A stretch of 64,000 bases of DNA. Origin: Gemmatimonas aurantiaca T-27. Lineage in GTDB: Bacteria > Gemmatimonadota > Gemmatimonadetes > Gemmatimonadales > Gemmatimonadaceae. The stretch covers positions 1,302,001 to 1,366,000 of the forward strand of contig NC_012489.1 of the NCBI RefSeq assembly GCF_000010305.1, read 5' to 3'. Made by a program: the position numbers and the translations under genes. The notes below the pieces were generated by a model. That model worked only from the letters and a program-made list of their open reading frames with translations, was not told where the DNA came from and made no database searches. Within the stretch, counting starts at the first letter, position 1, and each line of letters begins with the position of its first letter. Of the stretch, positions 49,476-64,000 are shown piece after piece.

Positions 49476-51056
49476 TCAGGCCGCGGCGCGCGTGCGGGTC
49501 GACCCGCCTTCCCCGCGCCGTGCTTTGTGTGCCTGAGAGGACGCGTGTCGATTGGAGAGGACAAAATTGCCCACCAACTCATCGAGGCTGTGTGCCTGAC
49601 TGGACAGCTCCACGGCGGCCGCGGCGGCTTCTTCCGCGTTGCTGGCCACGGTCTGTGTCGACGCGTTCATCAGGTGGGCCGCCTGCGTAAGCTGGTCCAC
49701 ACCCTGCGCCTGCTGCGTACTCGTGGCCGAAATCTCGTCGATGACACCGCTGAGCTGCCGAATCTGTCCATCGATATCGTCGAGTTGACGCTGCACCACA
49801 CCCTGTCGCTGGTTGCCTTCCTGCGCGTGGCGCACGCTCTCTTCGATCATCGTGGCCGTGCTCTTGGCGGCGTCGGCACTCCGAATGGCCAGGCTGCGCA
49901 CTTCGTCCGCCACCACGGCAAAGCCCTTGCCCGCATCACCGGCGCGAGCGGCCTCCACGGCCGCGTTGAGCGCCAGCAGGTTGGTCTGGAACGCGATCTC
50001 ATCGATGGTCTTGATGATCTTCGCTGTTTCGACGCTCGATCGGGCGATGCGCTCCATGGCGATCGATAGTTGCGCCATCTCGGAAACACCCTGCGCCGTG
50101 CTGGTGTGCGCCGTCTGCACGAACCGACTGGCCTCGACGGTGTGCTGCGCATTGTTCCGCGCCATGGCCGCGAGTTCTGTCAGGCTGCTCGTGGTTTCTT
50201 CGAGGCTGGCCGCCTGATCGGCCGCACCGTGCGCCAGCGCATCGCTGCCGGCACTGATCTCGGTACCGGCATTGGAGACTTCCGATGCCGCGACGGCCAC
50301 GCGCTGCAGCGCCGAGTCGAGGTTGCCCACGGCTTCGTTCAGCGCCGTCTGCAACACGAGATAGTCACCCAGATAGGTGCCTTCCATACGGGCGGTCAGA
50401 TCGCGACCCGCTACCCGTTGCAAGGTGCCGGACGCTTCCTGCAGCGGCGTGCTGACGGCATCCATCACCCGATTGAGACCGATCGCGAGGTCGGCGTAGC
50501 TGCCCTCATGACGCTGGATATCCGCCCGACGGGACAAATCGCCGGCCCGCGCCGATTCATTGAGCGTGGCCGAATCGGTGACGATGGCCAGCACATTGCG
50601 CTGGGCCGCGTTGAGCGATTCGATCGACGCCTGACACGTGGCGATGATGCCGTTTACCGTGGCAGCCAGTTCGCCGAGTTCGTCCTCGCGTTCGATTTCG
50701 ATGAGCGTGGTCGTCGCTTCGAGTTTGCCCGTCAGATCGCCGTGCGCCATGCCGGTGGCGATGCGCTCGATGCCGGCAATGCAGTTGCGGCGCAGCTTGG
50801 TCGCGCGGTCCGCAATCTCGTGCAGGGGAGCGAGCGTACGACGCACCATCGTGTACGCGGCGCCACCCGCACACGACAGCACCACCGCCGTGCCGATGAG
50901 CATCCAGCGCGTCAACGCGATGGCGGGATTGCCTTCGAGCGTCGGGAGCAACCACAAGGCGGCCAGATCACTGGCCAACGCGATGCCTGTGAGTCCGCCG
51001 ATCAGAATCCCGACGCGTTGTGAGACAGACCTGGTGCTGGACATGAGACCACTCAT
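49476..51056 (-). CDS. Methyl-accepting chemotaxis protein, membrane-bound
   Basis: The 526-residue product has two transmembrane helices close together (about 14-37 and 47-70), so almost no periplasmic sensor, then HAMP-like segments (about 70-270) and a signalling domain. The latter has the conserved hairpin tip [23 protein letters not shown] followed by [15 protein letters not shown]. It probably senses something through its membrane or cytoplasmic part. A globin-coupled receptor lies next to it upstream. No CheA, CheW or flagellar gene is in the window. Confidence 0.92.
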
Positions 51057-51174: not shown

Positions 51175-52683
51175 CTATGCGATTCTCTTGAGACGAGGGC
51201 CGTTGCGCGTTTCGTCGGCCCGAAAGCGCTCGACAGCACTGCCGAGCACCGCGGCGCGATCGCTGAGCTCCATGCTGGTGGCACTGCCTTCCTCGGCGTT
51301 GGCGGCCACGGTTTGTGTCACAGTGTTGATCTGGTCGATGGCCTTGGAGATTTGCTGCACGCCTTCCTGCTGCTGACCCGCAGCCGCTGCGACCTCCGAC
51401 ATCACCACACGGACCCGATCGGCCTGTCGTACGATCTCGGAGAGCGTGCCCAGTACCGTCTCGTTGAGGCGCACCCCTGCGTTGGTGCTCGACATCGACT
51501 CTTCGATGAGCGCCGTGGTGCTGCGGGCGGCTTCGGCACTGCGCATGGCGAGGCCGCGCACTTCATCAGCGACGACCGCAAATCCGCGACCGGCATCCCC
51601 GGCCCGGGCCGCTTCGACTGCCGCATTGAGCGCCAACAGATTGGTCTGGAATGCAATCTCATCGATGGTCTTCACCACGCGAGCGGTGGCATCCGACCCC
51701 GCCTTGATGCGGGTCATCGCATCGGCCAACTGCTGCATGGAGCGTTCACCGCCCGCTGCCGTATCGCGCGCCTGTTCCGCCAACGTACGCCCTTCTCGTG
51801 CGTGTGTCGCGCTGGACTGCGTCATGCTCGTGAGTTCCTGCAAGCTGGCCGCCACTTCTTCCAGCGAAGCGGCCTGACTGGAGGCGCCCTCGCTCAGCAC
51901 ACCACTGGCGTCGCGTAGCGAAGTGGACGTGCCCAGGATCTCGTCGGCCGACTGCCGTACCACGTGCATCGCGCCCTGCAGCTCCTGCAGCGCCGAATTG
52001 AAATGCACCTGCACTTCGGCGTTGCGGCCGGTGTAGGTGCCGGTGAGACGAACGGTGAGATCGCCCTGGGCCAGTCGTGAGAGAGCCGTGCTGATATCGT
52101 CGAGGAACCGCATGGCTTCACCCTTGAGGATGGCTTCGATGCGTTCCTGACGGGCGTTGGTGAGCGACGTGATGACGATGGCGATGTCGGCCTGCAGCAA
52201 GCGGTCGAAGGCCCGCTGGAAGCGATACAACTCCGCGGGGGTGGCGTCGCTGCGTTCCACGGCCGAGAACATGTGCTCGCGGATGACCTCGTACATCGCG
52301 ACGTACCAATTCGAGTCCAGATCAATGCGTTCGTGCACCTGACCCACGAGGCGACGATAGGCGATGTAGCCATCGTCGATCACGCCGCTGAACATGGCCA
52401 GCAGATATCGTGTGATCAGCGGACGCTGGCGGTCCACCGAGGTATGCCGATCGAGAATCTCTTTGGTCGCTCTCGTGCCGGCGATGTGGGCATAAAAATC
52501 GTCGATCATGGCATCACAGGCGGCGCGGCACACGGATTCCCACGCCTGCACCACACCGAGGTCGGTATTGGTGAGCTTCAGGAAATCGAGACGGCGGCGC
52601 ACTTCGACGTCGGTGACTTCAATGCGCCCCAGCGGATACACACGCTCGACGTTTTTCTTGGAGACGGAACGGAACCAGACCAT
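51175..52683 (-). CDS. Globin-coupled sensor chemoreceptor (HemAT-like)
   Basis: The 502-residue product has no transmembrane helix. An N-terminal protoglobin domain (about 25-185) with a probable proximal heme His in [10 protein letters not shown] (about H117) is followed by a linker (about 190-240) and an MCP signalling domain with [27 protein letters not shown]. This is the plan of HemAT oxygen sensors that drive aerotaxis. It would signal to CheA when oxygen or another gas binds. The start ATG lacks a clear Shine-Dalgarno. Confidence 0.9.
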
Positions 52684-52952: not shown

Positions 52953-54209
52953 CTATTCGTGTCGGAGCGCTTCCACGGGATCGAGACGGGATGCGCGCAA
53001 CGCGGGCAGCATACCAAAGGCCACACCGGTCACGGCACTCGCCAGGACGGCGGTCACCATGATGCTTGTTGGTACCGATGCGGGCAGCGAGCTGTTGCTG
53101 CGGATGATCCACGCCAGCAGGGCACCGACCGCCAATCCGATGAACGCACCGATACTGGTCAGCGTCGCGGCCTCCACCAGAAACTGCCATCGAATGGTGC
53201 CCGCCGTCGCTCCCAAGGCTTTGCGGACGCCGATTTCGCGGGTACGCTCGGTCACGGAAATCATCATGATCGCCACCACACCAACACCTCCCACCAGCAA
53301 TGCCACCGCCGACAGGGCGAGGCCCACGGCGAAGATGGTACCGAAGAGCTGGTTGAAGGTGTCCATGATGCGATCCTGCTCCACGAGATAGAACGTGTTG
53401 CGATCGCTTGGGCGCAGTCCCCGTCGTGCCCGCATCGAGGCCATCACTTCGTCCATCACCTCTGCCTGGCTGATGTCACTGCGGGGACGCACCATGAGCG
53501 TGAGACTTCCGCGAAACGCATCGAGCTGCCGCACGGCCGTGGACGTGGGCACGATGGCGCGCGGTGTTTCCGGCCCACGCCCTTCAAGCGAACGCAGAAA
53601 GCCGGCGCGTGGATTGTAGACGCCGATGACGGTGAACTGGCGACCACTGATCGTCACGGGCTTGCCGATCGGTTCGGAATCGCCGAACAACTGAGCCTTG
53701 AGGGTGTCGTTGAGCAGCACGACCGGTTGTCCTGCCTCATACTCGGCACGCGTGAAATTGCGTCCCGGGGCGATATCGGATGCGTTGACGGCCGGCCATT
53801 CCACGCTGTAGGCGTCGTAGCCCACGTTGTCCACGCGACTGTTGCGATAGGCGAAGTTTGCTTGCCCCGCCATCGTGCCGATGACTTCCTGCACACCCGG
53901 CAAGCGCCTGATCATGTCCCACTCGGCGAACGAGATGGGCGGATTGCGGCGATCGGGACAGTTCTCATCGGTGCCGTCGCAGGCGTTGATGCCGCTGCCG
54001 CGTCGCTGCACGATGAAGGTGGTGGCGCCGATTTCTTCGAGATCCTGCTGAAATGAAGCGCGGATCCCGTTGACCACCGCGCCCATGGCCACGACCACGA
54101 ACACGCCGATCGCGACACCGGCAATGGTCAGCGCCGCACGCACTTTGTTGCCACGGATGGCTTCGAGCGCCATGCTCACTCCTTCGAGTGCGAGCAAGAT
54201 GCCGTTCAT
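52953..54209 (-). CDS. MacB-type ABC permease, type A, copy 3
   Basis: The 418-residue product has the FtsX/MacB plan: one N-terminal helix (about 23-50, NKVRAALTIAGVAIGVFVVVAMG), a large periplasmic MacB-core domain, and three C-terminal helices with the conserved GGVGVVAIMMISVTERTREIGVRKALGA. Its periplasmic part starts with a Cys pair at C77 and C84 (CDGTDENC), shared with the other type A copies. It has no ATPase domain; the ATPase is encoded upstream in the same locus. Last gene of the locus. Confidence 0.9.
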   Translation of the reverse strand: MNGILLALEGVSMALEAIRGNKVRAALTIAGVAIGVFVVVAMGAVVNGIRASFQQDLEEIGATTFIVQRRGSGINACDGTDENCPDRRNPPISFAEWDMIRRLPGVQEVIGTMAGQANFAYRNSRVDNVGYDAYSVEWPAVNASDIAPGRNFTRAEYEAGQPVVLLNDTLKAQLFGDSEPIGKPVTISGRQFTVIGVYNPRAGFLRSLEGRGPETPRAIVPTSTAVRQLDAFRGSLTLMVRPRSDISQAEVMDEVMASMRARRGLRPSDRNTFYLVEQDRIMDTFNQLFGTIFAVGLALSAVALLVGGVGVVAIMMISVTERTREIGVRKALGATAGTIRWQFLVEAATLTSIGAFIGLAVGALLAWIIRSNSSLPASVPTSIMVTAVLASAVTGVAFGMLPALRASRLDPVEALRHE

Positions 54210-54213
54210 GACC

Positions 54214-55455
54214 TCATTCCTGCCTCAGGGCGGCGATGGGATCGAGTTGTGCTGCACGGCTGGCGGGATAGAGACCGGCGGCGATGCCTACACCAGCACC
54301 GGTCACGAGCGCGGCCACGATCGACCACGGGGCAACAGCGGCCGGTAGGGGCGTGAGCGCCGCGATCAGTTTGGCGAGTCCAATACCCAGCGCGATGCCG
54401 ATGGCCGCACCGAGCGTGCTGAGCGTGGCGGCTTCCACCAGAAATTGCGACAGGATGTCCGAGCGTTTGGCGCCGAGTGCCTTGCGCACCCCGATTTCGC
54501 GGGTGCGTTCGGCAACAGCCACCAGCATGATGTTCATGATGACCATCGCCCCGACCACGAGACTGATGGCGGGCAGCGCGGTTCCAAAGAGGACCAGGCG
54601 TCCCTTCAACTGCTTGATGAAGCCGAAGGCCGCATCCTGCGTCACGAGCCCGAAATTGTCCGCCTCACCGGCGCGGAGACCGCGAAATGCGCGTAGCGCG
54701 CTGCGCGCCGCTTCGACTCCCTCGGCGAGGTCGGCCTGCGACGGCGCCTGCACGATGAGCGAGGAGATATCGCGCATGGGGCGGATGATACGGCCCATCG
54801 GCGACGTGTACGGCGCAATGGCCATGCGATCGAGCGAGAACCCGAAGACGGACCCTTGTTTTTCGATCACACCGATGACGGTGAAGGGCACACCGCTGAC
54901 ACGAATCTGACGACCTTCGGGGTTGAGGCCGGGAAAGAAGTGCTCCGCGACTTCCACGCCGATCACCAGGACTGGTGATCCCGCGCGGACCTCCTGCTCG
55001 GTGAACGCGCGCCCCTGCGTCACGGCGAACTTCTTGATGGCGAAGTACTCGGCGTCGGTGGCGATGGCCTGTACCTGCCGCGGCCGGGCCCCTGGGGCGG
55101 CCCCGTACTTGAACGTCTCACTCGAGATCGACGATCGCATGGACGAGGGAAGCGCCGCGCGCACCACGTCGACATCCGTCATGCGCAGGAGCGGGCGACG
55201 GCGAGCCTCTCGCACATCGAATCCACGGTTGCCCCCGGGCCCCACGTTGTCGAAACGCCGGAGGGTGAACGTGTTGGTCCCGATCAGTCGCGAGGCAAAG
55301 TCCTCTTCGACATAGCGGCCCATGCCTTCCACGATGGAAACCACCGCGATGAGGAACATGACGCCGATCATCACGCCGAGCAGCGTGAATGCGCTTTTGA
55401 GCTTCTGGACCCGGAGCTGGTTGAAGGCCAGCCGGACTGCATCGAGGGTTGTCAC
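54214..55455 (-). CDS. MacB-type ABC permease, type B, copy 3
   Basis: The 413-residue product starts with the type B helix KLKSAFTLLGVMIGVMFLIAVVSIVEGMG and has a periplasmic core without the Cys pair of type A. The C-terminal part has MIMNIMLVAVAERTREIGVRKALGA. It pairs with the type A copy that starts four bases after its stop. GTG at 55455 is the start. It probably forms a heterodimer with type A. Confidence 0.9.
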   Translation of the reverse strand: MTTLDAVRLAFNQLRVQKLKSAFTLLGVMIGVMFLIAVVSIVEGMGRYVEEDFASRLIGTNTFTLRRFDNVGPGGNRGFDVREARRRPLLRMTDVDVVRAALPSSMRSSISSETFKYGAAPGARPRQVQAIATDAEYFAIKKFAVTQGRAFTEQEVRAGSPVLVIGVEVAEHFFPGLNPEGRQIRVSGVPFTVIGVIEKQGSVFGFSLDRMAIAPYTSPMGRIIRPMRDISSLIVQAPSQADLAEGVEAARSALRAFRGLRAGEADNFGLVTQDAAFGFIKQLKGRLVLFGTALPAISLVVGAMVIMNIMLVAVAERTREIGVRKALGAKRSDILSQFLVEAATLSTLGAAIGIALGIGLAKLIAALTPLPAAVAPWSIVAALVTGAGVGIAAGLYPASRAAQLDPIAALRQE

Positions 55456-55552
55456 CCCCTATTCTAACGTGCGCCGACCCATCGTGGGACGAATGGCGGG
55501 CCGGTACGCGACCCGCCAGAGGGCCTGACTCGAGATGAGGGGCTCGCTGGCC

Positions 55553-56818
55553 CTACTCGTGCCGGAGTGCTTCCACGGGATCGAGGCGGGATGCGCGCAA
55601 GGCCGGCAGCATGCCGAACACTACGCCGGTGGCGATACTGGCGATGATCGCGGTCGCGATGGCGGATCCGGGAATGGATGTGGGAATGGACGTATTGCTG
55701 CGTACGATCCATGCGAGCACGGAGCCGGCAATCAGCCCCACCGATGCTCCGATCGACGTGAGCGTCGCCGCTTCGACGAGGAACTGCCAGAGAATGGTCA
55801 CGCGCGTGGCCCCGAGCGCCTTGCGCACGCCAATCTCGCGCGTGCGTTCGGTCACCGAGATCATCATGATGGCCACCACACCGACGCCGCCGACGAGCAG
55901 GCCAACGGCGGACAGTGCCAGTTCCACCATGAAGATCGCGCCGAAGAGCTGGTCAAACGTCTCCAGCATGCGATCCTGCGCCACCAACGCAAAGTTGTTC
56001 GGTTGCGCCGGCTTGAGTCCACGTCGTCCACGCAACATCTCCGTGACGGCGTCCATCACCACGGCCTGCTGAATTCCGGGGCGTGGCTTGACCATGATCA
56101 ACAGCCCGCGCCGCCAGACGTCGAGATGGCGGTAGGCCGTCATCATCGGGAGAATGGCGCGCGGTTTGTCCGGTCCGCGTCCGTCCATCGACTTGAGAAA
56201 TCCGGCCTTGGTGTGAAACACACCAATCACCGTGAACTGCTTTCCCTCTACGGCGATCTGCTTGCCGATCGGATCGGAATCGCCGAACAGACGGTTCTTC
56301 AAGGTGTCGTTGATGACCACCACCTGCGCCGCTCCATCGTGCTCCGCGCGGGAGAAGCTGCGGCCCGGTGAGATGTCTGCTACGTCGGTCTTGATCCAGT
56401 CGGTGCTTTGCGCATCGTAGCCGACGTTGGTGACGTGCCGATCCTTGTAGTCGAAGCTGGTCTGTCCGGAGAGCCATGCCGTGGCAGTTTCCACATCGGG
56501 CATGTTCCGGATCGTGTTCCACTCATCGAGCGTGATGGCCGGGTTGCGGCGATCGGGACAGGTGTCATCGGTGCCATCGCAGGAGTTGAATCCCACGCCA
56601 CGTCGACGCACCTGAAACGAGGTGGCCCCGAACTCATCGAGGTCGGATTGGAAGCTCTGGCGAATGCCGTGCACGGTGGCCCCCATCGCCACCACGACAA
56701 ACACGCCGATCGCGACACCGGCGATGGTGAGTCCCGCGCGTACTTTGTTGGCGCGGATCGCATCGAGCGCCATGCCGATGCCTTCGAGTGCGACGAACAA
56801 TCGGTCGATGAATCGCAT
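55553..56818 (-). CDS. MacB-type ABC permease, type A, copy 2
   Basis: The 421-residue product is close to copy 3 of type A: ANKVRAGLTIAGVAIGVFVVVAMGATVHGI, Cys pair C80 and C87 (CDGTDDTC), PDRRNPAI, and the C-terminal GGVGVVAIMMISVTERTREIGVRKALGA. It starts three bases after copy 2 of type B. A 97-base gap follows before copy 3 of type B. Confidence 0.9.
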   Translation of the reverse strand: MRFIDRLFVALEGIGMALDAIRANKVRAGLTIAGVAIGVFVVVAMGATVHGIRQSFQSDLDEFGATSFQVRRRGVGFNSCDGTDDTCPDRRNPAITLDEWNTIRNMPDVETATAWLSGQTSFDYKDRHVTNVGYDAQSTDWIKTDVADISPGRSFSRAEHDGAAQVVVINDTLKNRLFGDSDPIGKQIAVEGKQFTVIGVFHTKAGFLKSMDGRGPDKPRAILPMMTAYRHLDVWRRGLLIMVKPRPGIQQAVVMDAVTEMLRGRRGLKPAQPNNFALVAQDRMLETFDQLFGAIFMVELALSAVGLLVGGVGVVAIMMISVTERTREIGVRKALGATRVTILWQFLVEAATLTSIGASVGLIAGSVLAWIVRSNTSIPTSIPGSAIATAIIASIATGVVFGMLPALRASRLDPVEALRHE

Positions 56819-56821
56819 GGA

Positions 56822-58057
56822 CTACTCCTGCCTCAGGGCGGCGATGGGATCGAGGCGCGCCGCGCGGCTCGCGGGATAGATACCCGCGGCGATGCCCACA
56901 CCCGCGCCGACCACCAGCGCCGCCACCACGGACCACGGCGCCACGGCCGCAGGGAGCGGCGTCAGCGCGGCAATCGTCGCCGCGAGCCCAACACCGAGTC
57001 CGATACCAACGGCCGCGCCAACCACGCTCAGCGTGGCCGATTCCACGAGAAACTGGGACATGATGTCGCGCCGTCGTGCGCCCAGTGCCTTGCGCACACC
57101 GATCTCCCGCGTGCGTTCGGCAACGGCCACCAGCATGATGTTCATGATGACCATGGCACCCACGACGAGGCCGATCGCCGGCAGCGCGGTGCCAAACACC
57201 ACCATCTTCGACTTGATCCCGTCGAAGAAGGCCAGCGCTTCGTCCTGTGTTTCCAACGCGAAGTTGTCCGCCTTGCCGGGCGGCAGGCGCCGCGCCGCAC
57301 GAAGCACCTCACGCGCCGCATCCATACCGTCCGTGACCAGCACGGCAGAGGGAGCCTGTACCACCATCGATTCGATGTCCCCCCGCGGCCGAATGGCCCG
57401 GTGCAGGGGACTGGTGTACGGCGCGATGGCGAGTCGATCGAGCGAGAATCCGAAGATCGTCCCCTGTTTCTCGATCACCCCGATCACTTCGAACGGCGTG
57501 CCATTGAGTCGCAGCTCACGTCCGATGGGATCGAGCCCCTGGAAGAAGTGTTCCGCCACTTCCACGCCGATCACGATCACCCGTGCACCGATGTTGACTT
57601 CCTGCTGCCCGAATGCACGACCGCGCTCGAGATTGAACTTCTTGATCGTGAAGTACGAGGCTTCCGTCGCGACCGCCTGCACCTGGCGTGGGCGGTTGTA
57701 AGGCGAATTGGCGGACATGAACAACTCGCTCGCGATTGCCGACAGACTACCCGGCGGCAGCACTCCGCGCACCAGTGCCGCATCCTGTGGGAAGAGTCGC
57801 GGTCGGCGCTGGATCTCGCGCCAGTCGAGATTGTCATCCGTATTGAAGTCGTTCCAGCGGCGCAACGTGAAAGTGTTCACGCCGAACAGCTTGCCGGCAA
57901 AGTCGTTCTCCACGTAACGACTCATGCCTTCCACGATGGATACGACGGCGATGAGGAACATGACGCCAATGGTCACACCGATCAACGTGAAGAAGCTTTT
58001 CAGCTTCTGCACACGAATGGTGGCCAGCGCCAACCGGACGGCTTCGAAGAATGCCAT
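56822..58057 (-). CDS. MacB-type ABC permease, type B, copy 2
   Basis: The 411-residue product is type B: KLKSFFTLIGVTIGVMFLIAVVSIVEGMS, no Cys pair, and the C-terminal MVIMNIMLVAVAERTREIGVRKALGA. It has an AGGAGG Shine-Dalgarno about nine bases before the ATG at 58057, so it is probably translated independently of copy 1 of type A, which ends 64 bases upstream. Confidence 0.9.
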   Translation of the reverse strand: MAFFEAVRLALATIRVQKLKSFFTLIGVTIGVMFLIAVVSIVEGMSRYVENDFAGKLFGVNTFTLRRWNDFNTDDNLDWREIQRRPRLFPQDAALVRGVLPPGSLSAIASELFMSANSPYNRPRQVQAVATEASYFTIKKFNLERGRAFGQQEVNIGARVIVIGVEVAEHFFQGLDPIGRELRLNGTPFEVIGVIEKQGTIFGFSLDRLAIAPYTSPLHRAIRPRGDIESMVVQAPSAVLVTDGMDAAREVLRAARRLPPGKADNFALETQDEALAFFDGIKSKMVVFGTALPAIGLVVGAMVIMNIMLVAVAERTREIGVRKALGARRRDIMSQFLVESATLSVVGAAVGIGLGVGLAATIAALTPLPAAVAPWSVVAALVVGAGVGIAAGIYPASRAARLDPIAALRQE

Positions 58058-58121
58058 CGGTGGTGCCTCCTGAATTGTGGTGCGACGGATTGTCGGCTAC
58101 AGGCCCGGTGTCGGGCGTGAA

Positions 58122-59375
58122 CTACTCGTGGCGCAGTGCTTCGACGGGGTCGAGCTTCGATGCGCGGCTGGCCGGCAGCATGCCGAACAACACGCCGGTC
58201 ACGCAGCTCGCGCCCAGTGCGGCCACCACCGCCATCGGCGGAATGCTCGCATCGATGGGTGTGAAGTTCCGGATGAGGAGCGCGCCGAGCCATCCCACGA
58301 AAAGACCGATGGCGCCACCAATGCCCGTGAGCGTTGCGGCTTCCACCAGAAATTGCCACAAAATGGTGGCACGTGTGGCACCCAGTGCCTTGCGCACGCC
58401 GATCTCGCGCGTCCGTTCCGTCACGGAGATCATCATGATGGCGATCACCCCCACGCCACCAACGATCAGGCCGACGCCGGACAGGGCAATCATCACGAGG
58501 AAGAACATGCCGAAGATCGAGTTGTACGTCTCGAACAACTTGTCCTGCGTGATGATGGCGAAGCTCGACTCTTCAGCCGGTCGTGTACCACGCATGCCGC
58601 GCAATCCGGCCGTCACGTCGTCGATAACCTGATCACGCGACACGTTGCTGCGCGGCTTCACCGCCAGGCCGATATTGCTGGCGCGCGCACCCACATAGCG
58701 GATGAGCGCCTGCACGGGCATGACGGCCTTCGGACGCTCGCCACCCGACAGGAAGCTGCTGTTGTCCTTGTACACACCGATCACTTCGAACGGCACGTTG
58801 TTGACGAGCAGGGTCTTGCCGATCGGATCGAGTTCACCGAACACGCGCTCCACCATGAGCGTCGTGATCACGACCACCCGTGCGCCGGTCCGCGCCTCGG
58901 CGGACGTGAAGGCACGCCCGGGATACACATCCGGGGCGCCGATCGTGGTCCACTCGGCCGAGTAGCCTTCCACGGACGCCTGCGAGAGCTCGCGATCGCG
59001 ATACTTCACCTTCGCACCCCAGTCGAGACGCTCGCCAACCGCTTCAACGGACGACAGGCGGCGCAGCATCTCCACTTCGTTCGAGCGAAGGGGCGGATTG
59101 CGGAGCCACTTGCACGTTTCATCGGAGCCGTCGCAGGCCTCGAAGGAAATGGGGTATCGCGTGACAAAAAACGTCGTCGGACCGGTGCTGGCGAAGTCCT
59201 TCTCGACCGACTTGTTGATGCCGTGCACAGCCGCGGAGATGGCGACCACCACGAACACACCAACGGCGATGCCGAGGATGGTCAGACCGGCGCGCACCTT
59301 GTTGGCGCGCACCGCATCGAGCGCGATGCGTACGCCTTCGGAAACGGCGGACAGGCGGGTGCTGAAGGCAGACAT
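58122..59375 (-). CDS. MacB-type ABC permease, type A, copy 1
   Basis: The 417-residue product is the most divergent type A copy: ANKVRAGLTILGIAVGVFVVVAISAAVHGI, Cys pair C81 and C88 (CDGSDETC), but KWLRNPPL where the others have PDRRNP. Its periplasmic core differs from copies 2 and 3. C-terminal GGVGVIAIMMISVTERTREIGVRKALGA is conserved. Starts three bases after the stop of copy 1 of type B. Confidence 0.9.
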   Translation of the reverse strand: MSAFSTRLSAVSEGVRIALDAVRANKVRAGLTILGIAVGVFVVVAISAAVHGINKSVEKDFASTGPTTFFVTRYPISFEACDGSDETCKWLRNPPLRSNEVEMLRRLSSVEAVGERLDWGAKVKYRDRELSQASVEGYSAEWTTIGAPDVYPGRAFTSAEARTGARVVVITTLMVERVFGELDPIGKTLLVNNVPFEVIGVYKDNSSFLSGGERPKAVMPVQALIRYVGARASNIGLAVKPRSNVSRDQVIDDVTAGLRGMRGTRPAEESSFAIITQDKLFETYNSIFGMFFLVMIALSGVGLIVGGVGVIAIMMISVTERTREIGVRKALGATRATILWQFLVEAATLTGIGGAIGLFVGWLGALLIRNFTPIDASIPPMAVVAALGASCVTGVLFGMLPASRASKLDPVEALRHE

Positions 59376-59378
59376 GAC

Positions 59379-60626
59379 CTATTCCTGACGCAGGGCGGCA
59401 ATCGGGTCGAGCCGCGACGCGCGACTGGCCGGATAGACACCGGAAACGATGCCAACGCCGGCGCCAAGGGCCACACCCACCACGATGGACCACGGCGCCA
59501 CGCTCGCCGGCAACGGCGATACGAGCGAGATGAACTTGGCGAGGCCGATACCCAGCGCCACGCCGATGGCCGACCCCACCGTGCCCAGCGTACTGGATTC
59601 GATGAGGAACTGCAGCAGAATGTCGCGCCGCTTGGCGCCGAGTGCCTTGCGGATACCGATTTCGCGCGTGCGCTCGGCGACCGCCACGAGCATGATGTTC
59701 ATGATGACGATCGCGCCGACCACCAGACCAATGGCGGGCAGGGCGACGCCGGCCACCACCAGGTAGCCTTTCATCTTGTTCCAGAACTCGAGTGCGGTGT
59801 CGGCCGTCTGCAGCGCGAAGTTGTCCTTCTGCGCCGGGCGCAATCGACGATTGGCCCGCATGGCCGCCCGCACGTCTTCCATGGTCTCGCGCATGGCCGG
59901 TTCACTCGGCAACTGGATCGCGATCGCGTCAACGATGTTCGGACGCGGATTCACGAGCCGGCGCACGGGTGACCGCCACGTGGTGACGAGGAAGTTGTCC
60001 ATCGACATGCCGAAGATCTGGCCCTGCGTTTCGGCGATGCCGACGATGCGATACGGCACACCGCCCAGGCGCACCTCGCGATCGACAGGATCGAGGCCCG
60101 GGAAGAGGCGCTTGGCGGCGTCGATCCCGATCACGGCGACCTTTTCACCGCGGCTGAGCTCCTGTTCGGAGAGCACGCGCCCTTCCGACACGCCGAGCTT
60201 CTTCATGTTGAAGTAGTCACCGTCCACTGCGGACACCTGAACCTGCCGCGGCTTGCCACTCACCGTGGTGGATGCTGTGACCTGGCCATCGCTCACGATG
60301 TACCAATTGGCATCCGCCGGCAGGGCACTGGTGACGGGCTCCACATCGGTGATTTCGATCCGCGGCCGGCGACGGTACTCCTCCCACGTCGCGGCATCGA
60401 CATCGCCGATGTTGATGTTCGGACGATTGCGCACTTCGAAGGTGTTCAGGCCGATCAGCTTCCCGACCAGGTCATCCTCCATGTAGCGCCCCATCCCCTC
60501 GACGATCGATACGACGGAGATGAGGAACATGACACCGATACACACTCCGAGCAGCGTGAACGCGCTCTTGAGCTTCTGGGTGCGGATGGTGCTGAGTGCC
60601 AGGCGAATGGCTTCGAAGAACGGCAC
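59379..60626 (-). CDS. MacB-type ABC permease, type B, copy 1
   Basis: The 415-residue product is type B: KLKSAFTLLGVCIGVMFLISVVSIVEGMG, a periplasmic core without the Cys pair, and VIMNIMLVAVAERTREIGIRKALGA near the C-terminus. It is the first permease after the ATPase, 24 bases away. GTG at 60626 is the start. Pairs with copy 1 of type A. Confidence 0.9.
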   Translation of the reverse strand: MPFFEAIRLALSTIRTQKLKSAFTLLGVCIGVMFLISVVSIVEGMGRYMEDDLVGKLIGLNTFEVRNRPNINIGDVDAATWEEYRRRPRIEITDVEPVTSALPADANWYIVSDGQVTASTTVSGKPRQVQVSAVDGDYFNMKKLGVSEGRVLSEQELSRGEKVAVIGIDAAKRLFPGLDPVDREVRLGGVPYRIVGIAETQGQIFGMSMDNFLVTTWRSPVRRLVNPRPNIVDAIAIQLPSEPAMRETMEDVRAAMRANRRLRPAQKDNFALQTADTALEFWNKMKGYLVVAGVALPAIGLVVGAIVIMNIMLVAVAERTREIGIRKALGAKRRDILLQFLIESSTLGTVGSAIGVALGIGLAKFISLVSPLPASVAPWSIVVGVALGAGVGIVSGVYPASRASRLDPIAALRQE

Positions 60627-60650: not shown

Positions 60651-61454
60651 TTAGTGCGCGACGCTGACGCCGACGCGCTCGACGAACTGATTGCGACGCT
60701 CGTCGCTGGCGATGACACCGTCACGCAACACGACCACACGCCGTGCATTGGCCGCGATATCGGGTTCGTGCGTCACCATGACCACCGTCTGCCCTTCGCG
60801 CGACAACTCGTCGAACACCCGCATGATTTCCGAGGATGTCTGCGAGTCGAGATTACCCGTGGGTTCGTCGGCCAGCAGGATGGACGGACGGTTCACCAGC
60901 GCCCGGGCGATGGCGACACGCTGACGCTGACCACCGGACAATTCGTTGGGACGGTGGTGCATACGCTGGCCGAGCTGCACGCGCTCCAGCGCTTCCGTGG
61001 CGCGCTTCTTCCGTTCTTCCGCCGACACACCGGCGTAGACCAGCGGCAGCTCCACGTTTTGCAGCGCCGAGGCGCGTGGCAGCAGGTTGAACGTCTGAAA
61101 GACGAACCCGATTTCCTTGTTGCGCACGCGCGCGAGCTGGTCATCGCTCATCGTCGAGACGAGCATGCCGTTCAGCCAGTATTCACCGCCGTTGGGTGTG
61201 TCGAGGCAGCCGATGAGATTCATCAGCGTCGACTTGCCCGAGCCGGACGGACCCATGATGGCCACGTATTCGTTGCGTCGGATCGCGAGGTCGACCCCGC
61301 GAAGAGCGCGGACGATTTCGCCGCCCATGTCGTACTGCCGTGTGAGCTGGCGGGTGACGATCACCCAATCCTGTCCCGGGGTCGCTCCCGGGGCACCCAC
61401 CACCGCACGCCGTTCGCCGGTCGTGCTGAGGCCGATTTCGTCCGCGCTGCTCAT
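60651..61454 (-). CDS. ABC transporter ATPase, LolD/MacB-type
   Basis: The 267-residue product has Walker A GPSGSGKS (68-75), Q-loop (about 120), ABC signature LSGGQ (172-176), Walker [10 protein letters not shown] and the H-loop VTHEPD. It belongs to the LolD/MacB/FtsE class that drives FtsX-like permeases. It is the only ATPase in the locus and so probably serves all six permeases. It has about 35 extra N-terminal residues. ATGA overlap with the adaptor gene upstream. Confidence 0.92.
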
Positions 61455-62740
61455 GACTTGCTTCCTGCCGCCGGCGCCTTCTTCTCTTCCGGCTTGTTGA
61501 CCTTGATCAACGCGCCGTCCTTGAGTTCACGGATCGCCTGGTAGGTACCGGCCACGATCGTCTCGCCGGTCTTGAGACCATCCAGCACTTCGAAGTGACG
61601 CTCACCCGCGATGCCGACCTTCACAGGGCGGAAGGTGACCTTGTTGTCCGCGCCGACGATGAACACGCCTTCCACATCGCGCTTGCCCACTTCCTTCGTG
61701 GGCTGCCGTCCGCCGACAGCCATCGCGGAATCACCGCTCGGCAGGCTCTCGTTCTCGCGCACGGTCAGGGCGATGATCGGGATGCTCAGCACCTTGGTCC
61801 GAGTGGCCGTGACAATCTTGGCCGTGGCCGAGAAGTCGGGGCGGGTATCCACCGGCGGATTCAGGAGCTGCACCCGCACTTCGTAGTCGATGGCCTGGTC
61901 ACCGGTGTTGGCGGTGGCGGTCTTCGTGACCGAGCTGTTGGAGATTTCCACGACCTTGCCGACAAACGTCGTGTCGGGGAAGGCGTCGATCTGGATGAGT
62001 GCCGAGTCGCCGACATTGATGCGCGCCACGTCGGTTTCGTCGACCTTCACCTTGGTCTCGAGCACGGCCATGTCGGAGATCGTCAGCAGGGTCGCCGCGT
62101 CCTTGTTCAGCGTGCCCATGATCGCCGTTTCGCCTTCTTCCACGTTCAGGCGGGTGATCTTGCCGCTCATCGGCGCCACGATCGTGGTGCGGTTGAGGGC
62201 CTGACGCGCGTCACGCACCGACGCCACGGCCTGCTCGACCGAGTAGTCGGCCGCTTCGGCGAGTGCCTTGTTCACTTCCATCTGCGTCTTGAGCTGCTCG
62301 ATCTGTTCGACGCTCACCAGCGTGGGCGTGGACTGCTGGATCTTGAGCGAACGCTCGTAGTTGCGCTCGGCCTGGATCAGATTGGCGCGCGCCTGCGCCG
62401 CCTGCGCCTTGGCCGACGCCTGTCCGGCTTCGGACCGCTGCAAGGCCGCCGTGGGCTGCTCCGGATCGATCTGCAGCAGGAACTGTCCCTTCTTCACGAT
62501 GTCGCCTTCCTTCACGGACAGGCGCACGATCTTGCCGGTCACGTCAGCCGAGACGTTGACCATGGTGCGGGGCTGGATCTGTCCGCTGGCGGTCACCGAC
62601 GCCACGAGATCCCGCGCTTCCACCGCCTCGGTGCGCACTTCGACCGGCTTGGTGGTGTTCTTCTTGGCGGCGACAAAGGCCAGGGCGGCCACAGCGACGA
62701 CGACAGCACCGCCGATGCCGTACTTCACGGTCTTGGTCAT
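61451..62740 (-). CDS. MacA-like periplasmic adaptor protein
   Basis: The 429-residue product has an N-terminal membrane anchor (about 8-25), a lipoyl/barrel-sandwich domain split around a coiled-coil hairpin (about 75-190), a beta-barrel domain and a membrane-proximal domain. [20 protein letters not shown] and [14 protein letters not shown] are typical of MacA/HlyD adaptors. It links the inner-membrane permease to the outer-membrane factor encoded 12 bases upstream. Confidence 0.9.
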
Positions 62741-62752
62741 GAATGATCTCAG

Positions 62753-64000
62753 TTAGCGAAGGGGGCGACCGACGGCGTTCTCGAGTGCCGCGAAGGCCCG
62801 TTGCACGTCGTAAATGGCGGTGATGCGATCCGTGGCAGCGCGCTCGTAGTCACCACGCGCCTGCACGAGGTCCACGATGCTGATCGCGCCGACGCGATAG
62901 CGTTCCTGGGCCAGTTCGAGCGCCGTGCGCGCGCTGCGCACGTTCTCTTCCTGCATGGTGACCGTCTGCTGCGCGGTATTGAGCTGCAGATAGGCCGCCG
63001 TGACGTCCGACGAGATGCGCAGTTCCTGATTGCGCACTTCGATCTGGGCGTTACGCTGATTCACGCTCGCCTGTTCGATCTGCTGCTCGCGGCGGAAACC
63101 GTTGAAGATCGGCAGAGAAAACGTCGCGCTCAGGCCGTACGGGTTGCGCGTGAAATCGAGGGGATACTTGCCCTGCGAATCCCGAATCGCCTGTTCGTCG
63201 GCCGGTGTGAAGGCCATGCCCTGACACTGCGTGAGCCGGTTGTCGAGATTCAGGCGGGCCCGGACTTCTTCCGTGCGAATGCAGGAGGCCTGCGACGACA
63301 GCACACCAGCCAGTCCCTGTTGGATGAGGGCGTTGGTGTTGGTGTAGCGGTTGGTGAAGCCCGAGATGTTGGCCGACAGCGCCAGCGTCGGGATGTACCC
63401 GCTGCGGGCGGACGCGATCGAACGCCGCGCACTTTCCTGGCGCGTCCGTGCGGCATCGAGCGTGGGGTTGTCGCTGCGTGCGCTGGCGAGCACCGACTGC
63501 AGATCGAGCGTCGGCGTGGGAGCCAGGGCGGTGTCGAGTCGGGTCTCCAGCACCGGCGGCAAGCCGATCTGCTGATAGAGACGCACGATTTCGATGGCGG
63601 CCTGATTGCGTGCATTGAGCGCGGCCACGCGCTGCTGTCCGTGCGTGACCTCGGCCCGCTGCACATCGAGCTGCGTGCCGGAGCCCACCTGCAGGCGCGC
63701 CTGGGCCAACTGCAACTGCGCCGACGTGGTGGTCAGCAACGTGTCCTGTAGCTGCGCGCGTGCCTGCTGCTGCAGCGCCGCCATGTACTGCACCGTCACG
63801 TCGTTGCGCACCCGCTGTTCGGCGGCCTGGATGTCCGACTCGGTCGCGTCCTGGTTGGCCTTGACCGCCCGGCGGTCATTGAGCGCCGCCATGGACAGGT
63901 TCAGGCTCGCACCGGCGGAGACGTCGGTGGACAACTGATCGTTGGTCGAACCGAACCCCTGACCCTGGAAGAACGTCTGACGGCCTTCGCGATAGCTGCC
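62753..64000 (-). CDS. TolC-like outer-membrane efflux protein, truncated at window edge
   Basis: The visible 415 residues are the C-terminal part of a TolC/OMF protein: coiled-coil helices with Gln/Ala-rich repeats (QQARAQLQDTLLTTTSAQLQLAQARLQVGSG), and the repeated second half ending RVGAISIVDLVQARGDYERA and AFAALENAVGRPLR. The frame stays open to the window edge, so the N-terminus and signal peptide lie outside. It forms the outer-membrane duct for the MacAB-type system. Two Cys in the central part (SCIRTEE, TQCQG) are unusual. Confidence 0.9.
   Translation of the reverse strand, partial: GSYREGRQTFFQGQGFGSTNDQLSTDVSAGASLNLSMAALNDRRAVKANQDATESDIQAAEQRVRNDVTVQYMAALQQQARAQLQDTLLTTTSAQLQLAQARLQVGSGTQLDVQRAEVTHGQQRVAALNARNQAAIEIVRLYQQIGLPPVLETRLDTALAPTPTLDLQSVLASARSDNPTLDAARTRQESARRSIASARSGYIPTLALSANISGFTNRYTNTNALIQQGLAGVLSSQASCIRTEEVRARLNLDNRLTQCQGMAFTPADEQAIRDSQGKYPLDFTRNPYGLSATFSLPIFNGFRREQQIEQASVNQRNAQIEVRNQELRISSDVTAAYLQLNTAQQTVTMQEENVRSARTALELAQERYRVGAISIVDLVQARGDYERAATDRITAIYDVQRAFAALENAVGRPLR

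Follow-up and report, generated by a model that had tools for sequence, protein, structure and literature searches.

The window analysed here is a stretch of 64,000 nucleotides from the genome of Gemmatimonas aurantiaca T-27, which is a single contig of 4.64 Mb. It holds an operon-like run of genes on the minus strand that reads, 5' to 3', outer-membrane factor (OMF), adaptor, ATPase and three permease pairs, A1–B1, A2–B2 and A3–B3 (Table 1). A first-pass annotation of this DNA had described six tandem permeases with one ATPase, a MacA-like adaptor and a TolC-like factor, and this was confirmed, the six permease genes lying where it placed them. For each of the six permeases, MacB_PCD and FtsX were both far over their cut-offs. 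The OMF gene is complete at locus L010 (14754–16271) and encodes 505 aa. The order B-A-B-A-B-A, as first given, holds for the plus strand read left to right; in the direction of transcription, A comes before B. Gaps within the A1–B1, A2–B2 and A3–B3 pairs are 3, 3 and 4 nt, respectively, and those between pairs are 64 and 97 nt, with no terminator-like site in either between-pair gap (weak evidence in itself).

Table 1. Genes of the operon-like run in T-27 (window coordinates)
Feature	Position	Strand	Remarks
TolC-like outer-membrane factor	62753..64000, past window end	-	OEP 146.6 bits
MacA-like periplasmic adaptor	61451..62740	-	HlyD_D23, Biotin_lipoyl_2; RND_mfp over cut-off; MacA 140 bits
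ATPase, MacB-like NBD, separate polypeptide	60651..61454	-	ABC_tran 118.7 bits
Permease A1 (type I cassette, first)	59379..60626	-	MacB_PCD + FtsX; model pLDDT 85.5
Permease B1 (type I cassette)	58122..59375	-	MacB_PCD + FtsX; model pLDDT 84.5
Permease A2 (type II cassette)	56822..58057	-	MacB_PCD + FtsX; 54.5% identity to A1
Permease B2 (type II cassette)	55553..56818	-	MacB_PCD + FtsX; 50% identity to B1
Permease A3 (type III cassette)	54214..55455	-	MacB_PCD + FtsX; 68% identity to A2
Permease B3 (type III cassette)	52953..54209	-	MacB_PCD + FtsX; 65% identity to B2

Other genes lie nearby. Just past the window end, at L010 16371–17291, is a gene for a secreted protein with a weak match to DUF6134. 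Such a protein, again by a weak match, is encoded upstream of the OMF in 48 operons and may be part of the exporter system. A protoglobin–MCP fusion (a globin-coupled sensor) is encoded at window positions 51175–52683, with an adjoining MCP-like gene at 49476–51056.

The permeases fall into two kinds. Identity between A and B proteins of the operon is 31–36%, and within each kind A3 is as far from A1 as A2 is (54.5%), and B3 as far from B1 as B2 is (50%). In the structure models, A1 and B1 each have four TM helices plus a periplasmic domain and a long stalk. Their top fold match is MacB (5gko), and they lie nearest to MacB and the pneumococcal permease of 5xu1, followed by LolCDE. With both Pfam domains in all six proteins and MacB as the top match of the A1 and B1 models, these are MacB-type (type VII) permeases.

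The ATPase had at first been called LolD-like. Yet its top NCBIfam score is MacB and its top PDB match is 5xu1, and it is closer to the MacB NBD and to Spr0694 (5xu1) than to LolD. To assess how widely the system occurs, we took a family sample of 61 genomes from 29 genera, each at least 90% complete, and located every A permease and close ATPase. Of the 61 Gemmatimonadaceae genomes, 60 have one and only one ATPase orthologue (identity of at least 76% and a score of at least 430 bits, the next best ATPase in any genome scoring at most 276 bits), as against 154 A permeases; in the remaining genome, the first A gene is cut by a contig end. All 60 orthologues have intact Walker A, Q-loop, signature and H motifs. 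Other MacB-type ATPases, several per genome, show 45–62% identity, and no second ATPase is present within the 19 kb T-27 locus. Further ATPase genes outside the locus, accompanying the extra permeases, were what the first-pass annotation had named as speaking against its proposal, and none turned up.

All 61 family genomes tested carry the system, as do 114 of 121 genomes from the phylum as a whole, which makes a basic envelope function likely. Relatives traced via the ATPase show that the layout recurs across Gemmatimonadota, the phylum within which we searched systematically for multi-pair arrays. The order of OMF, adaptor and ATPase is the same in those operons examined that escape contig ends. 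The number of pairs varies, from one to four per genome: the operon holds one pair in 15 genomes, two in 24, three in 18 and four in 2, and the other 2 of the 61 were scored as having none because of contig breaks. Three pairs, as proposed at the outset, is thus correct for the T-27 operon and not a special number, since family members carry one to four in the operon plus unlinked ones, and T-27 itself has a fourth. In contrast to pair number, pairing itself is invariant. B is the next gene in 153 of the 153 cases where A does not run into a contig end, with a median gap of 3 nt; the sole unpaired A (1/154) does run into one. This obligate pairing supports a predicted LolCDE-like heterodimer of two non-identical permeases.

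Genes inserted between pairs vary by lineage. Hybrid histidine kinases are encoded between the second and third pair at L101 9839–13752, where a gene for a periplasmic-binding-type receptor accompanies the kinase, and at L103 6085–8850; their position suggests regulated cassettes. In one genus the same place is taken by an MFS transporter gene (L139 2529–3722, L143 10203–11390 and L151 8457–9647), assigned by a Pfam match run for L139, the L143 and L151 genes looking alike. At L129 9847–13000 (identical to L036), the last pair has the opposite orientation to the operon.

Where do the pairs differ? We compared the coupling loop after TM2 with the periplasmic core. Between paralogues of different types in one genome (type C, described below, left out), the loop is 85% identical for A and 92% for B, whereas the core is only 42 and 41% identical. 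Among orthologues of one type, the corresponding values are 80 and 87% for the loop and 58 and 58% for the core. At equal membrane divergence, paralogues exceed orthologues by 15 points of periplasmic divergence (scatter 6 points). Nearly all types also emerge when the tree is built on membrane columns only, so this excess does not simply reflect the use of the core to define the types. The contrast between a nearly fixed ATPase contact loop and diverged periplasmic cores, noted at first reading for T-27, therefore holds. As it is chiefly the periplasmic core that sets the pairs apart, a difference in substrate is most likely, although paralogous pairs could instead differ in regulation. We also asked whether coupling helix and ATPase have co-adapted within individual genomes, and saw no effect: for the same type pair, loops are no more alike within than between genomes. 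The loop is thus simply held fixed, and its conservation indicates no more than that every pair still couples to an ATPase of this kind.

A tree of joined A and B sequences shows that the pair types are old. The T-27 operon carries types I, II and III, and the type IV pair of this genome is unlinked; in several other genera, type IV lies in the operon. Type C (44 pairs) nearly always takes the last place in the operon; T-27 lacks it, though its genus mates have it. The A3 clade includes G019, G040 and others, so A3 is not a recent copy. More generally, even the closest paralogue pairs are 30% apart in A and 34% apart in B and thus not recent copies either; near-identical duplicates with undiverged cores, which would have told against the original proposal, are not what the tree gives. 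These data bear on the possibility that only the ATPase-proximal pair exports with the ATPase, adaptor and TolC-like channel, the others being dosage duplicates or, for example, sensors that use neither adaptor nor channel. MacB-family permeases such as those of BceAB and FtsEX can act as sensors instead of transporters, and the first pair is the one directly linked to the ATPase. Yet the proximal slot is held by differing pair types, in G024 and G045 by type C on its own, coupling loops are well kept in all pairs, and a divergence of at least 30% argues against dosage copies. We consider this explanation unlikely.

Not all pairs reside at the ATPase locus. Across the 61 genomes, 27 pairs lie elsewhere, with no MacB-type ATPase in the flanks examined. 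For 17 of these, the flanks free of such an ATPase extend at least 5 kb on each side; contig ends may have truncated some of the remaining ten. Among the 17 is the fourth pair of T-27 (L180 10702–13218, genome position 4,094,701 on), whose type IV orthologues lie in the operon in G004, G007, G010, G011 and others. On the pair tree, at least eight switches between operon and distant location are needed. The T-27 unlinked pair is flanked by two S41-family peptidase genes (L009 5110–6462 and 10758–12164). Conserved neighbours of unlinked pairs were considered as a clue to substrate and set aside, the commonest, an ADOP-like family of 900–1000 aa, occurring at only five loci.

Unlinked pairs might be served by other MacB-type ATPases, which would confine engine sharing to the operon. 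Each genome does encode several such enzymes, at the 45–62% identity given above. In T-27, however, they adjoin permeases of their own, and the unlinked pairs have orthologues among the operon pairs and have changed location repeatedly. Acidobacteria, described below, offer a further argument, as there ATPase and pair are complementary singletons. Taken together, this makes service by other ATPases a distinctly unlikely arrangement. From the sequence comparisons we infer that unlinked pairs use the distant operon ATPase. With a single orthologue in 60 of 61 genomes and pairs elsewhere that lack an ATPase, the earlier suggestion of one engine for several A–B pairs gains ground, and we strongly infer that this ATPase is common to them. 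If so, a modular exporter would account for permease pairs without an adjoining ATPase. T-27 also has FtsX-type permeases without an adjoining MacB-type ATPase at L181 (~9458), L182 (~8142) and genome positions 3,499,711–3,501,258 (two single, one double).

The nearest relatives of the ATPase outside the phylum are found in Acidobacteria, behind an adaptor and with no permease after. All five acidobacterial genomes (L187–L196) have this adaptor–ATPase locus without a permease, plus one unlinked A–B pair without a nearby ATPase. The pair keeps the A–B order and, in complete genome G147, lies 500 kb from the ATPase. In a tree, acidobacterial A groups with A and acidobacterial B with B (support values of 88 and 93; some branches are long), which indicates that A and B had already separated when the phyla diverged. 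ADOP proteins had been considered as clients of the acidobacterial ATPase, an idea that became unneeded once the unlinked pair was found. An hpnI-related gene follows the pair in 4 of the 5 genomes, and the two tested passed the HpnI cut-off. This raised the idea of hopanoids as a common substrate, which is unlikely because no hopene cyclase was over cut-off in the Gemmatimonadaceae tested.

Could A and B mix freely across pairs, giving combinatorial heterodimers and no fixed cassettes? This is sterically conceivable, as the membrane and coupling regions of the A type are alike between pairs, and is nonetheless highly unlikely: all 153 pairs keep A and B together, the two have a common history, and free mixing would permit unequal numbers of A and B, which were not seen. 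Distances among A proteins track those among B proteins with r = 0.958; shuffling partners inside each genome lowers this to 0.05 on average. Such a correlation is expected from linkage alone, so it demonstrates inheritance as a unit, not contact. The initial proposal, in which neighbouring A and B could form heterodimers, is thus upheld in part: the pairing and the joint inheritance bear out an obligate unit, while the heterodimers themselves and the three substrate specificities are still predictions.

We therefore return to fixed A–B cassettes and assign a probability of about 0.7 to the reading that they are heteromeric and that each, together with one common ATPase, adaptor and channel, makes up a MacAB-TolC-like pump. 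Each pair would be one heterodimeric type VII transmembrane unit, whose conserved coupling helix would bind the same ATPase dimer and which would dock to the same adaptor and OMF. MacB-type units are described as working by mechanotransmission on the periplasmic side (PMC5985334). By analogy, ATP would drive closing of the A–B stalk and periplasmic domains, so that a substrate from the periplasm or the membrane is pushed into adaptor and channel, and the diverged periplasmic cores would select it, giving each pair a distinct predicted substrate. Put simply, soil and water bacteria of the Gemmatimonas type probably have one motor and one set of outer parts with one to four swappable pairs, each making a different version of the pump. 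The broader picture is of a phylum-wide modular exporter, in which one MacB-type ATPase, adaptor and channel drives a changing set of heterodimeric cassettes that each have a substrate of their own and are located in the operon or in trans, and which has an ancient origin common to Acidobacteria. We hold this to be a little better than an even bet. Cassettes with a constant motor interface and a varied periplasmic core would also allow a direct test of the specificity region in MacB-type permeases.

Several known systems share part of this design. Like T-27, MacAB-TolC (E. coli, Acinetobacter) combines a MacB-type permease fold with periplasmic core, a MacA-like adaptor and a TolC-like channel, and in T-27 the ATPase, adaptor and TolC-like factor are encoded with the permeases. 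Yet in MacAB-TolC the NBD is fused and MacB is homodimeric, whereas in T-27 the ATPase has its own gene, there are two distinct permease chains, and several permease pairs go with each ATPase. Spr0693–0695 of S. pneumoniae (5xu1, the best solved match of the T-27 ATPase) and YknXYZ of Bacillus also have a separate ATPase, a MacB-like permease and an adaptor. Unlike T-27, they have one permease gene, as described in the 5xu1 entry and PMC5985334, and no outer-membrane factor. LolCDE has a separate ATPase and two type VII permeases, which form a heterodimer (PMC5985334), but the T-27 permeases score at most 61.6 bits against the 362-bit cut-off of the LolC/LolE model TIGR02212, and LolCDE uses LolA and LolB whereas the T-27 system has an adaptor, a TolC-like factor and multiple pairs. 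In ADOP (TIGR03434), two MacB-like halves occur, often in many copies per genome; these halves are fused in one chain, however, and proteins of the T-27 window score 118–141.5 against a 622-bit cut-off. As far as the available sections of a review of the MacB family go, its members are homodimers, the LolCE heterodimer or fused forms, with no multi-pair case (PMC5985334). A literature search, which most subscription journals lay outside, found no description of multi-pair MacB systems or of a shared ATPase in MacB-type exporters. To our knowledge, tripartite ABC exporters have been described as having one permease type per pump.

Sharing of an ATPase has precedents among importers. MceG of Mycobacterium tuberculosis appears to serve both Mce1 and Mce4, each thought to have YrbEA–YrbEB permeases with a conserved coupling loop (PMC9947336). 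This too is one ATPase for several two-permease transporters, but they are lipid importers of another ABC type, not MacB-type, with the pairs in separate full operons. MsmX/MsmK likewise energises several permease sets that lack an ATPase of their own (PMC7658222), though these are type I sugar importers with binding proteins. A multi-pair MacB-type exporter would thus be a new variation on shared ATPases already known for importers such as those of MceG and MsmX and, if our reading is correct, the shared-engine design of importers now extends to tripartite exporters.
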